Below, in pieces: positions 5,485-45,397 of a DNA stretch of 46,157 nt (the first letter of the stretch is position 1; every line of letters starts with the position of its first letter). Position numbers and translations under genes: made by a program. The stretch comes from Anaerolineae bacterium (GTDB taxonomy: Bacteria > Chloroflexota > Anaerolineae > B4-G1 > SLSP01). The notes beneath the pieces were generated by a model. The model had not been told where the DNA came from, ran no database searches, and worked only from the letters and a program-made list of their open reading frames with translations. The stretch lies in the NCBI GenBank assembly GCA_026991395.1, contig JALXBP010000107.1:1-46157 (forward strand), written 5' to 3'.

Positions 5485-7128
5485 ATGGCTAAGCAGTTAT
5501 TGTTCGGTACCGAAGCACGTGCTGCGTTGAAGCGCGGTATGGACGTGATGGCCAAGGCCGTCATCACCACCCTGGGCCCGAAGGGGCGCAACGTCGCGCT
5601 GGACAAGAAATGGGGTTCGCCCACCATCACCCACGACGGGGTTACGGTGGCGAAGGAGATCGAACTGAAGGACCCCTTCGAGAATATGGGGGCGCAGTTG
5701 CTCAAGGAAGCAGCGACGAAGACGAACGACATCGCCGGTGACGGCACGACGACGGCGACGCTGCTCGCCCACATCCTCATCGAGGAGGGGATGAAGAACG
5801 TTGCCGCGGGCGCGAACCCGATGCTCCTCAAGAAGGGCATCCTCGCCGCGGCGGAAAAGGTCGCTGCGGCCATCAAGGAGGCGGCGATCGAGGTCGCCAC
5901 GAAGGAAGACATCGCCAACGTGGCCTCCATCTCCGCCCAGGATCGCGCCATCGGTGAGTTGATCGCCGAGGTGATGGAGAAGGTCGGCAAGGACGGCGTC
6001 ATCACCGTCGAGGAGTCCAAGGGTCTGGAGTTCGAGACCGAGTACGTCGAGGGTATGCAGTTCGACCGCGGCTACATCAGCCCCTACTTCGTCACCAACG
6101 CGGAGACGATGGAAGCGGTCATCGAGGAGCCGTACATCCTCATCCACGACAAGAAGATCTCCGCCGCGCAGGACCTGGTGCCGATCCTGGAGAAGCTGGT
6201 GCAGCAGGGCGCGCGCAACCTGGTGATCATCGCCGAGGACGTGGACGGCGAGGCGCTCGCCACGCTGGTCGTCAACAAGCTGCGCGGTCTGCTCAACGTG
6301 CTGGCCGTCAAGGCCCCCGGCTTCGGCGACCGGCGCAAGGCGATGCTCCAGGATATCGCCATCCTCACCGGCGGGCACGTCATCACCGAGGAGGAAGGGC
6401 GCAAGCTGGATAGCGCCACGCTGGCCGACCTCGGTCGCGCCGACAAGGTCGTTTCCACCAAGGACGAGACGACGATCGTCGGCGGGCGCGGCGATGAGGC
6501 GATGATCAAGGCACGCATCGAGCAGATCAAGGCCGAGATCGAGCGCTCCACCTCCGACTACGACCGCGAGAAGCTCCAGGAGCGGCTGGCGAAGCTGGCC
6601 GGGGGCGTGGCGATCATCCGCGTCGGGGCGGCGACGGAGACCGAGCTGAAGGAGAAGAAGCACCGCGTCGAGGACGCCCTTTCCGCAACCCGCGCTGCGG
6701 TCGAGGAGGGCATCGTCCCCGGTGGCGGCGTGGCCCTGCTCAACGCCCGCAAGGCCCTCGACGGCATGAAGATGGACTACGCCGACGAGCAGACCGGCGT
6801 CACCATCCTGCGCAAGGCCCTGGAGATGCCCGTGCGCAAGATCGCGGAGAACGCAGGAATGGACGGCGCGGTCATCCTCGCCGACGTGCTGCGCAAGCAG
6901 GCGGAAGAGGGCAACGACCACATCGGCTACGACGTCATCACCGGCAAGTTCGAGGATATGGTGAAGGCGGGCATCATCGATCCGGCCAAGGTGACGAAGG
7001 GCGCGCTGCTCAACGCGGCCTCCGTGGCGGCGATGGTGCTCAGCACCGAGGCGCTCATCACCGACATCCCGGAGCCGGAGAAACCGGCAGCGCCGGGCGC
7101 GGAGATGGGCGGCGGGATGGGCTTCTAA
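5485..7128 (+). CDS. groEL: Chaperonin GroEL (Cpn60)
   Basis: 547 residues, typical length. Recognisable segments are [14 protein letters not shown], the ATP-binding AGDGTTTAT near residue 85, the signature [15 protein letters not shown] near residue 405, and the GGM-type tail (GGGMGF). Forms the tetradecameric folding chamber with GroES. A clear SD (GAGGAGG) precedes ATG 5485. A strong intrinsic terminator follows the stop. Val-Thr codon pairs here often use GTC/GTG (for example at about 6085, 6799 and 6989), unlike most neighbouring genes, which use GTA/GTT before Thr; highly expressed codon choice may explain this. Confidence 0.98.
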
Positions 7129-40966: not shown

Positions 40967-42351
40967 GGCAGCAGGTAGTTGATCTGATCGGGCACGGGCG
41001 TCAGCAGGTAGACGTCCACCCAGGCATACCACAGTTTCAGGTGCTCATCATCGTAGCCCAAGTCGATGCGCCGACCGCGGATGGCCCCGCCGGTATCGGC
41101 GGCCAGCCCCAGGCCGTAGCCGGGCACGTAGACCTTCGTCCCCAGCGGGATGACGCGGGGATCGACGGCGACGATGCCGTCGCCCATCGGCAAGCCGGTG
41201 GCGGTACGTCCGTAGTAGGGGAGATCGGGGGAGACGCCTGCCGTGCTCGCACTGTAGGAGGTCGCCAGCGCGTGAATGACGCGCCAGTAGTTCACCGGCC
41301 CGGCCTCCGTTTGCAGCGTGCGGATGACGATCTTCGTCCCGTAGCCCATCACGCGATTGACCGGGGCTTCGACGACGCTCTCGCCTTCCACCTGACGGGC
41401 GACAACTTGCCCGTCCTCGTAACGGATGCGGATGCGGCGCTCCAGAACGCCCGGCTTGCCTTCCTGCAGCAGCCCCTGATGGTCCAACTCCATCTCCGGA
41501 TCGGCCTGCCAGACCGTCTCGAAGGGGATCGGGCTTTGTTCGACGACGATCGACTCGCTCACCCGCACCACGCGGATCGCCGCCCCGTCGCCCAAGGGGG
41601 CATCGAGCGGCGGATCGCTGTAGTCCAGGCCGCTGAGGATGATCCCCAACTCGGCCAGCACCTCGCCGACGGTGTGCCGGTGCGTTCGCGTGCGCAGGGT
41701 GTGCCCGTTCACCTGCACGGAGACGGGGATGGAACGCTCCAGGCGGATGTGCATCCCGCTCTGGACGGGGGTCTCCGGCCCGGGGAAGATGTGATCGGCG
41801 CGGTAGAGGAGGATGCCGTTCTGCAGGAGCGCCTCGCCGACCGTCGCCGCGTCGGTGTAGAAGAGCGTGCGCACCGCCCCCTCCTCCAGCACGACGGGTA
41901 CGGCATGGCGGACGAGGAGATGGACGACCGTCCCGGCGGGATCGGTCGGGGCGGGCGGTTCGACACGGACGGTGTCGTGCTCGCCGACGACAACGCCCGC
42001 CTCGCGCAAGATGGCATAGGGGTCGGCCTGGCGAAGGTAGAGGACTCGCTGCTCGCCGTCCACCTCCAGCACCACCGGACGGGCACGGCGGATGGCGATG
42101 GTCATCCCGTCCTGCAGCGGCGTTTCCAGCGCCGGTTCGACGGCATCCTCCGCACGCAGGGCGATCCCCTTGTCGGCGAGGAGGTAGGCCACGGTCGGCT
42201 GATGGGTGTGCACGCGGTGGCTCTCTCCATCGACCTCCAGCGTAACGGCGAAGGCCGTCGCGCGGTAGGCGGCGACGAAAGCGATGAGCGCCGCCAGCAC
42301 GACCACCGCTTCGATCCATCGATGCCGCCCGAGGGCCTCTCTGTTGCCCAT
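40963..42351 (-). CDS. YabE-like secreted protein: DUF348 repeats, G5 and 3D domain
   Basis: 462 residues. A signal-anchor (about 12-33, WIEAVVVLAALIAFVAAY) is followed by three to four ubiquitin-like DUF348 repeats (TVAYLLADKGIAL, DPYAILREAGVVV, TVGEALLQNGILL, TVGEVLAELGIIL), a G5 domain (FETVWQADPEMELDHQGLLQEGKPG...) and a C-terminal 3D domain with TATGLPMGDGIVAVDP, IPLGTKVYVPGYG, AADTGGAIRGRRIDLGYD (the conserved Asp residues). Family knowledge: similar proteins (YabE, RpfB) act on peptidoglycan; the 3D domain resembles a lytic transglycosylase fold. A GGAGG lies upstream of ATG 42351, which is about 28 nt downstream of the SRP RNA end. Confidence 0.92.
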   Translation of the reverse strand: MGNREALGRHRWIEAVVVLAALIAFVAAYRATAFAVTLEVDGESHRVHTHQPTVAYLLADKGIALRAEDAVEPALETPLQDGMTIAIRRARPVVLEVDGEQRVLYLRQADPYAILREAGVVVGEHDTVRVEPPAPTDPAGTVVHLLVRHAVPVVLEEGAVRTLFYTDAATVGEALLQNGILLYRADHIFPGPETPVQSGMHIRLERSIPVSVQVNGHTLRTRTHRHTVGEVLAELGIILSGLDYSDPPLDAPLGDGAAIRVVRVSESIVVEQSPIPFETVWQADPEMELDHQGLLQEGKPGVLERRIRIRYEDGQVVARQVEGESVVEAPVNRVMGYGTKIVIRTLQTEAGPVNYWRVIHALATSYSASTAGVSPDLPYYGRTATGLPMGDGIVAVDPRVIPLGTKVYVPGYGLGLAADTGGAIRGRRIDLGYDDEHLKLWYAWVDVYLLTPVPDQINYLLP

Positions 42352-42378
42352 CTGCTCCCTTCACCTCCGAACCGACAC

Positions 42379-42552
42379 GGGCCGCCCCGAAGACCAGCCG
42401 CGAAAGGTGCCGTGGCCCAGATGCACTGCGGCACCCGGAGACCATGCCTTACCGTTGCTTCCTCCCGGACCTGGCGGGGTTCGACAGGCTCCGCCGCGCA
42501 GGACCCAGGCCACAACACCCTTCGAGGCTCGTCCTCGCCGAGGCGGCCCATC
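42379..42552 (-). ncRNA. ffs: Signal recognition particle RNA (4.5S type) with extended helix
   Basis: The conserved SRP helix 8 region is unmistakable on the minus strand (AGGTCCGGGAGGAAGCAACG at about 42471-42452, then GGTAAGG and GCATGGT). The usual hairpin would span about 42412-42513. The flanks continue to pair: about 36 further base pairs in four helices (GGGCCGCC/GGCGGCCC, CGAGGAC/GTCTTCG, AGCC/GGCT, and a 17-bp helix ending GTGGCC/GGCCAC) extend the rod to about 42379-42549. A promoter gives a start at about 42552, matching this longer form. No Alu-type domain fits. Ends are inferred from pairing. Confidence 0.85.
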
Positions 42553-42558
42553 AGGGCC

Positions 42559-42586
42559 ATGGTAGTGGAAGGAGCGAGGATGTCAA
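42559..42586 (-). promoter_or_regulatory. Promoter of SRP RNA (and perhaps of the YabE-like/rsmA genes)
   Basis: Minus-strand perfect TTGACA (42581-42586), 16-nt spacer, TACCAT (42559-42564). The start falls near 42552, at the outer end of the extended SRP rod. No terminator is visible between the RNA and the YabE-like gene. Confidence 0.7.
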
Positions 42587-42675
42587 GAAAGGCCAAACAG
42601 GCATCGATTTCCATATTCCGCGCAGGAAAACGGGGGGAAGAGACGACAAAATAAGCAGATAACGGCGTTGTCATC

Positions 42676-42827
42676 GGTCCGCCCGTGGGGGGCGGGCCGG
42701 GGGGACTGGGTACAAGGAGGGTACCCAGAGCAGGCTCGGCGGCATCGGCGGCGTCCATAGGGGGGAGGTAGAACGAATGGTTCTGCCCGGCGCAACCGGT
42801 GCCGCCGAGCTTTGTGATGCCACAAGC
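42676..42827 (+). promoter_or_regulatory. Structured leader upstream of the 107-aa gene
   Basis: Five hairpins occur in 152 nt: 9 bp GGTCCGCCC/GGGCGGGCC (42676-42698); perfect 8 bp CTGGGTAC/GTACCCAG with loop AAGGAGG (42706-42728); perfect 11 bp GCTCGGCGGCA/TGCCGCCGAGC closing 42734-42810; inside it 8 bp GGTAGAAC/GTTCTGCC (42767-42787) with an ATG in its loop; and TTGTG/CACAA (42812-42825) just before the SD. No known riboswitch class recognised. No convincing promoter was found in 42600-42675. Confidence 0.55.
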
Positions 42828-42839
42828 AAAGGAGGGACT

Positions 42840-43163
42840 ATGATACCTGTCGAACAGATGATGGCCTCTGCACGCGCGCTCCTCGAGGCCCTGCGCAAGA
42901 AAGATGCTGCAGCCATCAAAGGCGCGGCTTCGCGCTTCGTTCACAGCGTCGAAGCAAGTTGGCGGGCTTTCGAAGACGGGGAAATCGCCATCCATATGCG
43001 GGGACGGGCCTTTCCGCTGATGATGTACAATTTCGCCGTCGTCGAACTGCCGGAACGTATCACCGATCCAGAAAGCTGGTCTGCGCTGGCACAGGAACTG
43101 CGCGGCTTCATCAATATGATTGGCCTCCTCGCCCCTTCGGATACGACAGACGAATCCTCTTGA
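42840..43163 (+). CDS. Hypothetical 107-residue protein
   Basis: Mostly helical, neutral to acidic; starts MIPVEQMMASARALLEALRK and ends LAPSDTTDESS. A central segment VEASWRAFEDGEIAIHMRGRAF is followed by a hydrophobic strand-like MMYNFAVVELP. No signal peptide, membrane helix or known motif. Start ATG 42840 has AAAGGAGG at 4 nt. An in-frame ATG at 42777 with GGGGGAGG 8 nt upstream would give 128 residues, but that start is inside a hairpin loop and the extra residues look uncharacteristic. Unknown function; followed by pcrA with its own promoter. Confidence 0.75.
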   Translation: MIPVEQMMASARALLEALRKKDAAAIKGAASRFVHSVEASWRAFEDGEIAIHMRGRAFPLMMYNFAVVELPERITDPESWSALAQELRGFINMIGLLAPSDTTDESS

Positions 43164-43188
43164 CCTTGCGGCCGGCCGACGGCAGTAG

Positions 43189-43216
43189 TTGCCCGTCATT
43201 TGCACCATGCTACAAT
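43189..43216 (+). promoter_or_regulatory. Promoter giving a leaderless helicase mRNA
   Basis: TTGCCC (43189-43194), 16-nt spacer, TACAAT (43211-43216). The expected start (6-8 nt after the -10) falls at or within 1-2 nt of the ATG at 43223, and no SD precedes that ATG. Confidence 0.7.
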
Positions 43217-43222
43217 GGCCGC

Positions 43223-45397
43223 ATGGAAGAGCTGCTGAACGATCATCCGCTGCTCCGCACACTCAACGGTCAACAACGCGAAGCCGTTACTGCTGAAGAC
43301 GGTCCCGTCCTCGTCCTGGCCGGGCCGGGCTCCGGCAAGACGCGCGTCCTCACCTATCGCATCGCCTGGATGCTGGAGGAGCACTGGAGCCGCCCGTGGC
43401 ACATCCTCGCGGTAACCTTCACCAACAAGGCGGCCCGCGAGATGCGCGAGCGGATCGCGCTGATGGAAGGGCGCGATGTCGCCCGCGCGATGACCGTCGG
43501 CACCTTTCACGCCACGTGCGCCCGCATCCTGCGCCGCGAGGCCGACCTGCTCCCCTTCACCGCCGACTACCTCATCTTCGATGCGGACGATCAACGTGCC
43601 CTGATGAAGAGCATCGTGCGGGAATTCGGCCTCGACGAGAAACGCTATCCACCCCGCGCCCTGCTGAGCGCCGTCTCCAGGGCGAAGAACGAACTCATCA
43701 CCCCCGACGACTACCCTGTCCGCACCTACTACGATGAACTCGTCGTCCGCGTCTACCGGCGCTACGAGGAGACGCTGCGGGCCAGCAATGCGCTCGACTT
43801 CGACGATCTGCTGATGGAGACCGTCTTTCTCTTCCACCAGGTACCCGAAGTCCTCGCCCGCTATCGGGAGCGCTACCGCCATATCCTCGTGGACGAATTC
43901 CAGGATACGAATGTCGCGCAGTACATCCTGCTGCGCCAATTGGCCCTCGAACACCGCAGCCTCTTCGTCGTCGCCGACGAGGATCAGTCGATCTACTCTT
44001 GGCGCGGTGCCGACTACCGCAACATCCACCGACTGCGCAAGGATTTCCCGGAACTGCGGCAGATTCTCCTGGAGGAAAACTACCGCTCGACGCAGATCAT
44101 CCTCGACGCAGCCCGGCACGTGATCGCCAACAACAGCGACCGCACGCCCAAACAGCTCTTCACGCGCCGCAAGGGGGGCACGCCCATCATCGTGTGGGAA
44201 GGCTATGACGAGACCGAGGAGGCCCGCTTCGTCGCCAGGACGATGCTCGAGCGCCACCGCCGGGGCATTCCCTGGTCGGAGATGGCGGTGATGTACCGCG
44301 CCAACGCCCAGTCCCGCGCCCTGGAGGAGGCCCTCATCCGCAAGGACATTCCCTACCGCCTCGTCGGCGCGACACGCTTCTACGCCCGCCGCGAGGTCAA
44401 GGATATCATCGCCTATCTCCGCCTGGCGCAGAATCCGCGCGATGACGTCAGCTTCGCCCGCGTGCTCAACCGACCGCCAAGGGGGCTGGGCAATCGGACG
44501 GCGGAAAAGCTGATCCTCCGCGCCCAGGAGGCGTCGGTCAGCCGCTACGAGGCGGCGAGGATGCTCTTGCACACCGGACTGTTGCGCGGGCCGCAACGGC
44601 GGGCCGTCGAGAGCTTCCTGACGATGATCGAGGGGTGGGTCCGCGACCGCGACCGCCTGCCCCTGCTCCAACTCTTCGATCGCATCGTACAGGAGACGGA
44701 CTACGAGCGTTTCCTGCGCGATGGCACCATCGAAGGCGAATCCCGCTGGGAGAACATCCTGACGCTGCGCGGCGTCATCGCCGATGCGCCGGAGGTCAGA
44801 CTCAGCGATTTCCTCACCGAGGTTGCCCTTATCGCCGACGTGGATACACTGGAGGAAACGGAAGAGGCCGTTACACTGCTGACGCTGCACAGCGCCAAGG
44901 GGCTGGAATACCGTATCGTCTTCATCGTCGGCCTCGAAGAAGGGCTCCTGCCCCACCGTCGCTCACTGGAAGAGTCCCTCGATGCGCTGGCGGAGGAGCG
45001 GCGGCTCTTCTACGTCGGTATGACGCGGGCCAAGGAGGAACTCTATCTCACCCGCGCCTTCCGTCGAGGCTGGTACGGCGGCGATCAAGTTACCGAGCCA
45101 TCGCGCTTCCTGGAAGAGATTCCCGCCCATCTGCGGAGGGAACAAGGCCGACCGCCGCAACCAAGCCACACGCTGCCGCAGTGGCAGTCGGCCACCTGGC
45201 AGCGTCAACAGAGTGCCGAGCGCCGTTTCCGCGCGGGAGAGCGGGTGCGGCACAGGCGCTTCGGCGTCGGGCGCGTGCTGGACAGCCGCATCGAGGACGG
45301 CTATGAGATCGTGACCATCCTCTTCTCCGACAACGGCATCGGCGTCAAACAGTTCCTGGCCGAAAAGGCACCGCTCGAACCGGTCTCCAATGCCTGA
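43223..45397 (+). CDS. pcrA: PcrA/UvrD-type DNA helicase
   Basis: 724 residues from ATG 43223 (MEELLNDHPLLRTLNGQQ). SF1A helicase: Q motif LNGQQREAV, Walker A AGPGSGKT, motif Ia FTNKAAREM, motif II VDEFQDTN, motif III DEDQSIYSWRGAD, motif IV LEENYRST, motif V LHSAKGLEY and motif VI VGMTRAKEEL. The C-terminal Tudor-like RNA-polymerase-binding patch (GERVRHRRFGVGRVLDSRIE) is present as in PcrA/UvrD. Unwinds DNA 3'-5' in repair and transcription-coupled processes. The frame is open upstream, but neither SD nor family similarity supports an earlier start; the promoter implies a leaderless mRNA. The next gene starts 19 nt after the stop. Confidence 0.95.
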   Translation: MEELLNDHPLLRTLNGQQREAVTAEDGPVLVLAGPGSGKTRVLTYRIAWMLEEHWSRPWHILAVTFTNKAAREMRERIALMEGRDVARAMTVGTFHATCARILRREADLLPFTADYLIFDADDQRALMKSIVREFGLDEKRYPPRALLSAVSRAKNELITPDDYPVRTYYDELVVRVYRRYEETLRASNALDFDDLLMETVFLFHQVPEVLARYRERYRHILVDEFQDTNVAQYILLRQLALEHRSLFVVADEDQSIYSWRGADYRNIHRLRKDFPELRQILLEENYRSTQIILDAARHVIANNSDRTPKQLFTRRKGGTPIIVWEGYDETEEARFVARTMLERHRRGIPWSEMAVMYRANAQSRALEEALIRKDIPYRLVGATRFYARREVKDIIAYLRLAQNPRDDVSFARVLNRPPRGLGNRTAEKLILRAQEASVSRYEAARMLLHTGLLRGPQRRAVESFLTMIEGWVRDRDRLPLLQLFDRIVQETDYERFLRDGTIEGESRWENILTLRGVIADAPEVRLSDFLTEVALIADVDTLEETEEAVTLLTLHSAKGLEYRIVFIVGLEEGLLPHRRSLEESLDALAEERRLFYVGMTRAKEELYLTRAFRRGWYGGDQVTEPSRFLEEIPAHLRREQGRPPQPSHTLPQWQSATWQRQQSAERRFRAGERVRHRRFGVGRVLDSRIEDGYEIVTILFSDNGIGVKQFLAEKAPLEPVSNA

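Follow-up and report, generated by a model that had tools for sequence, protein, structure and literature searches.

The window analysed here, a stretch of 46,157 nt from contig JALXBP010000107.1 of an Anaerolineae bacterium, contains a gene for a 107-aa protein that is preceded by a dense run of predicted hairpins (Table 1), raising the question of whether this segment serves the gene as an RNA leader and, if so, in what manner. RNA folding places four stem-loops between 42674 and 42825, immediately 5' of the gene at 42840-43163, the third of which (H3) holds an inner hairpin, accounting for the five hairpins counted in the initial annotation. The perfect 8- and 11-bp stems, the AAGGAGG loop and the ATG-bearing loop after GGGGGGAGG described there are likewise all present in the fold. 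The last stem had been said to abut the Shine-Dalgarno (SD) sequence; H4 does lie just 5' of it, although 2 nt intervene. Pairing probabilities leave the loop of H2 unpaired (probability ∼1.0), and in a longer fold the SD and the ATG at 42840 form some pairs with the beginning of the coding region. The inner hairpin of H3 is rivalled by an alternative minimum free energy (MFE) pairing at the same place, and its loop, GAATG, contains an ATG (42777) that is in frame with the 107-aa gene and 8 nt 3' of GGGGGGAGG. Since no anti-SD-like segment (CCUCC) was seen in the leader, a classic SD-sequestering switch inside it is not apparent. It may be conjectured that H1 forms the start of the transcript, were initiation to occur near 42669. 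A possible minicistron, the start codon of which falls within the loop of H4, may be a chance occurrence. Two further candidates were rejected. G-runs exist in the leader, yet folding with quadruplexes allowed returned the same structure, and a LexA-like reading of AGAACGAATGGTTCT, present in single copy in the 46-kb window, has a spacer of 5 that misfits the Bacillus LexA box.

Table 1. Predicted elements of the leader, adjacent features and the two loci that outrank the leader in folding score. Positions are those of the window unless a locus is named.
Feature	Position	Strand	Description	Basis
H1	42674-42700	+	GC-rich hairpin TCGGTCCGCCC-GTGGG-GGGCGGGCCGG, 11 pairs, 3 of them G-U	RNA fold
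H2	42706-42728	+	Perfect 8-bp stem, CTGGGTAC-AAGGAGG-GTACCCAG	RNA fold
H2 loop AAGGAGG	42714-42720	+	Complementary to the anti-SD of 16S; fully unpaired in the ensemble	
H3	42733-42811	+	16-pair outer stem (11-bp perfect core), 2x2 internal loop, 5 pairs, inner hairpin	
H3 inner hairpin	42767-42787	+	8 pairs, GGTAGAAC-GAATG-GTTCTGCC	Centroid structure
H4	42812-42825	+	TTGTG-ATGC-CACAA, 5 bp	RNA fold
Possible 8-codon minicistron MPQAKEGL	42817-42843	+	TGA overlaps the ATG of the gene (ATGA); no SD of its own	
SD AAAGGAGGG	42828-42836	+	Followed by ATG 42840	Sequence
107-aa gene	42840-43163	+	Four-helix bundle (predicted); scattered occurrence in the phylum	
Small SRP RNA	42412-42510	-	RF00169, 64.1 bits; transcribed away from the leader; neighbour, outside the element	
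Promoter-like sequence of SRP RNA	42586-42559	-	TTGACA-16-TACCAT	Promoter scan
Promoter-like sequence of downstream uvrD	43189-43216		TTGCCC-16-TACAAT	Promoter scan
L128 (G000:C140)	1-100 of locus		Perfect palindrome at contig end; outranks the leader	
L135	∼19,200 of locus		Hairpin pair (terminator pair) between convergent genes; outranks the leader	

The fold of this segment is statistically striking. For 42670-42860 the MFE is -101.8 kcal/mol, whereas dinucleotide shuffles average -76.1 kcal/mol (z -6.0) and none of 200 is as stable; the value for 42670-42839 is -99.3 kcal/mol (z -7.3; 0 of 300 shuffles as stable). When 170-nt windows were tiled over the 46 kb, the leader was the lowest of the 542 both in energy and in z, its tiling z of -8.35, based on only 24 shuffles per window, being followed by -4.84. 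Against a GC-corrected genome background, sampled as stretches amounting to ∼566 kb of 2.46 Mb, the leader is outranked only by the palindrome of L128, which is probably an assembly artefact, and by the hairpin pair of L135; neither the glmS ribozyme nor any tRNA in the same stretches ranks above it. The glmS ribozyme (RF00234, 78.2 bits) of the window's own genome lies at 6539-6716 of locus L152. The sense strand, at -99.3 kcal/mol and with 8 G-U pairs, is also more stable than the antisense strand (-79.9 kcal/mol, 2 G-U pairs), as expected for RNA and not for DNA palindromes. When the leader was shuffled 4000 times, one shuffle produced a perfect stem of ≥8 bp enclosing a loop with GGAGG, a post hoc figure, since the identity of the loop was noticed before the test.

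The frame of the gene is open from 42663 onwards, and initiation at the ATG at 42777 could in principle yield a 128-aa protein, in which case the region would be coding. Codon log-likelihoods per codon, taken for the leader in the frame of the gene, are -0.30 for the leader and -0.43 for 42777-42839, compared with values of 0.08 in the 107-aa gene and 0.39 in uvrD; no codon-position GC bias was detected in the leader, and homologues of the 107-aa protein align from 42840. A coding extension from 42777 is ruled out by the codon statistics together with the homologue starts, and, with the absence of GC bias, these observations are the reason for which the leader is taken as untranslated. The proposal in the initial annotation that this is a structured leader is thus upheld by the significance of the fold, the bias towards the sense strand and the lack of a coding signal, and translation from 42777, which it had named as one outcome that would overturn the proposal, finds no support.

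The presence of related leaders elsewhere was examined by several routes. No Rfam family scored at its gathering threshold in the leader and, at E values up to 10 across 4227 families, the one match, to a miRNA model, is on the other strand, falls well short of that model's cut-off and is ascribed to chance, in agreement with the earlier statement that no known class fits. A single-sequence covariance model recovered the leader alone from 396 class-level genomes and, besides palindromic repeats and weak chance matches, from 48 order-level genomes; these large searches use stricter filters with which weak matches can be lost, and the genomes include no other species of its genus. A second copy was absent from its own genome, with only short or coding matches elsewhere. 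The leader had no match in plasmids and phages, nor the exact core of H2 in the genome (GTDB contigs) and viral collections. The best matches of a DNA search of 60 related genomes, 22-27 nt in length, lie in coding sequence and mostly represent a recurring ATGGIGGVHRGHPED protein motif; they were rejected as homologues. Rejected too were covariance matches in genome G015, which are palindromic repeats, one of them a long perfect palindrome. This genome, of the same family, carries MITE-like repeats with three consecutive long GC-rich near-perfect hairpins (L054, ∼1501-1665; L055, ∼1501-1714), and also long perfect palindromes on a contig (L048 and L051, G015:C637) that are probably assembly artefacts. 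With the leader seen in a single genome, comparison gives no proof of its function; it is a real, statistically striking and unclassified structured leader, for which a role as RNA is neither established nor refuted by these searches.

The protein encoded downstream has no sequence match in Pfam, NCBIfam or the PDB, nor any in the genome and viral collections. A single-sequence AlphaFold model predicts a four-helix bundle (pLDDT 83), the structural resemblances of which are generic and without significance, FliS, hemerythrin-like and designed proteins appearing among many helical bundles. The other 23 genomes of its own family have no homologue. Across the class, 11 of 396 genomes gave a match, and across the phylum 7 of 400; both figures count its own genome, and some of the matches are weak or partial. 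The nearest homologues, at 32-37% identity, come from three sister-family genomes and lack such a leader; the sister-family homologue sits directly 3' of a gene that we take to be mrp-like from a reading of its translated sequence, with a gap of at most ∼90 nt and no significant fold. A lack of stem conservation among relatives had been set down at the outset as evidence against a functional RNA, and this is in part what was found, the leader being absent from the three nearest gene homologues and from the other genomes searched, all of which belong to other genera. In a distant genus (G615, G646 and G587) the homologue is preceded by a promoter-like TTGCCA-17-TATAAT sequence and a short leader with a 9-bp hairpin, the stem of which is constant and the loop variable. 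That leader likewise precedes a homologous gene, but differs from the present one in sequence and layout, folds more weakly (z -1.6 to -2.6) and is not homologous to it. Two of the five copies of the gene in the distant genus (L133 and L134) look decayed or truncated, which suggests that it is dispensable there.

The sporadic distribution of the gene and the lack of homologues of the leader would both fit a functionless cluster of DNA palindromes, either a MITE-like remnant or chance repeats inserted 5' of the gene, and G015 provides an example of repeated multi-hairpin palindromes in a sister genome. However, the single copy in its own genome does not fit a MITE, the sequences of the different stems are unrelated to each other, and the clear advantage of the sense strand in folding is unlike that of a perfect DNA palindrome. 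This explanation is considered unlikely, while retaining an appreciable chance of being correct.

Consideration of the surroundings bears on how the leader might be transcribed. The small SRP RNA gene on one side and uvrD on the other each have a promoter-like sequence of their own, the TACAAT box of the latter having a similar counterpart ahead of uvrD in several relatives. The leader and the 107-aa gene thus have the appearance of a distinct unit of transcription. A consensus scan revealed no convincing sense-strand promoter 5' of the leader. The type of SRP RNA varies within one order: tested members of the window's family have only the small form (RF00169), whereas sister families have a 265-nt large form (RF01854, 171-186 bits), the loci compared being L056, L057 and L072 versus L058, L060, L068, L075, L081 and L085. 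This suggests that the Alu-like domain was lost or gained between families. A scan for terminator-like sites, defined as a hairpin followed by a T-run, was negative throughout 42330-43300, although this criterion may be unsuited to the lineage. The latter result is relevant to the suggestion that H3, and perhaps H1 and H2, are leader terminators of an attenuator, the gene being expressed only upon read-through or antitermination. H3 is very stable and GC-rich and is followed by CTTTGTG, and hairpins between convergent genes in this organism also lack long T-runs, such as GGCGGCCTTTGTGG at ∼19,200 of L135. Set against this are the negative scan at the leader itself, the mere three T residues after H3 and the failure to find an alternative antiterminator pairing, and attenuation is accordingly regarded as doubtful.

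On the reading that is tentatively preferred, with a chance of being right that falls somewhat short of even, the 107-aa gene has in 42674-42836 a structured 5' leader peculiar to its lineage, by which the frequency of translation initiation would be set and in which AAGGAGG, the loop of H2, would act as a standby or decoy site for the 30S subunit. The leader and gene would be co-transcribed, and stable hairpins would conceal most of the leader, leaving the H2 loop, ∼115 nt 5' of the real SD, as a putative landing or diversion point for the 30S subunit; the real SD would meanwhile alternate between an open state and pairing with the first part of the coding sequence, and binding of the 30S subunit at the H2 loop may play a regulatory role. 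In silico support is provided by the significant, sense-biased fold, the exposed SD-like loop, the start at 42840 and the non-coding character of the leader, with strong structure and an accessible single-stranded site 5' of the SD, the combination looked for in a standby leader, both being predicted. Structured standby sites can change initiation by more than 100-fold, and distant sites are usable (Espah Borujeni et al. 2013, PMC3936740). The leaders described in that work resemble the present one in having stable hairpins 5' of the SD, a single-stranded landing site and the possibility of distant binding, but what may serve as the landing site here is an SD-like sequence predicted to lie within a hairpin loop. 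Counting against the standby reading are the restriction of the leader to one genome, the nearest gene homologues that lack it, the absence of CCUCC and the want of a convincing promoter. In a variant of this scheme, judged improbable, the hairpin copies the SD of the gene itself (CAAGGAGGGUAC versus CAAAGGAGGGAC), such that the decoy would capture a regulator, possibly the 107-aa protein, or the anti-SD, resulting in feedback on translation.

The remaining explanations fare less well than a leader that sets translation initiation. The strong structure of the sense strand would suit a standalone small RNA gene lying by chance 5' of the 107-aa gene, and the element could equally be transcribed alone, but it ends 2-3 nt from a good SD, no terminator-like site separates it from the gene and no homologue was found, making this idea quite improbable. 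A metabolite-sensing riboswitch of an undescribed class would share with orphan riboswitch candidates and Rfam cis-regulatory RNAs a long structured leader, here immediately 5' of the SD, that matches no known class. Riboswitches are recognised, though, by cores conserved across species, and none was found in the 48 order-level and 396 class-level genomes searched; the leader is a single sequence, the gene downstream has no metabolic assignment, and the ligand riboswitch reading, unsupported as it stands, is very unlikely. Least probable of all, with only a slight chance of being right, is a CsrA/RsmA-like GGA-recognising repressor occupying the H2 loop and the SD as in glgC, since, although H2 (GUACAAGGAGGG) agrees with RUACARGGAUGU, the SELEX consensus, at 10 of 12 positions and, as in the glgC leader, a loop GGA flanked by paired AC and GU is combined with a second GGA at the SD (PMC7652899), its stem of 8 pairs exceeds the mostly ≤4 contiguous pairs of SELEX stems (PMC7652899), its 7-nt loop differs and is also plainly an SD, PF02599 had no match in its own genome (2 of 48 genomes in the order; three control genomes positive) and the 566 kb sampled contain no surplus of such hairpins, 8 having been counted where 5-10 are expected. 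CsrA itself was rejected as the binder for lack of a protein match and of an excess of GGA hairpins; binding of H2 by another protein with a CsrA-like preference is possible.

Should the leader prove functionless, it would illustrate that a regulatory RNA class cannot be recognised from an extreme folding score by itself when relatives are lacking. If functional, conversely, it would represent a strongly structured and unclassified leader from a lineage in which few cis-regulatory RNAs have been described, and would offer a clean test of whether a copy of the SD in a hairpin loop recruits ribosomes or diverts them.
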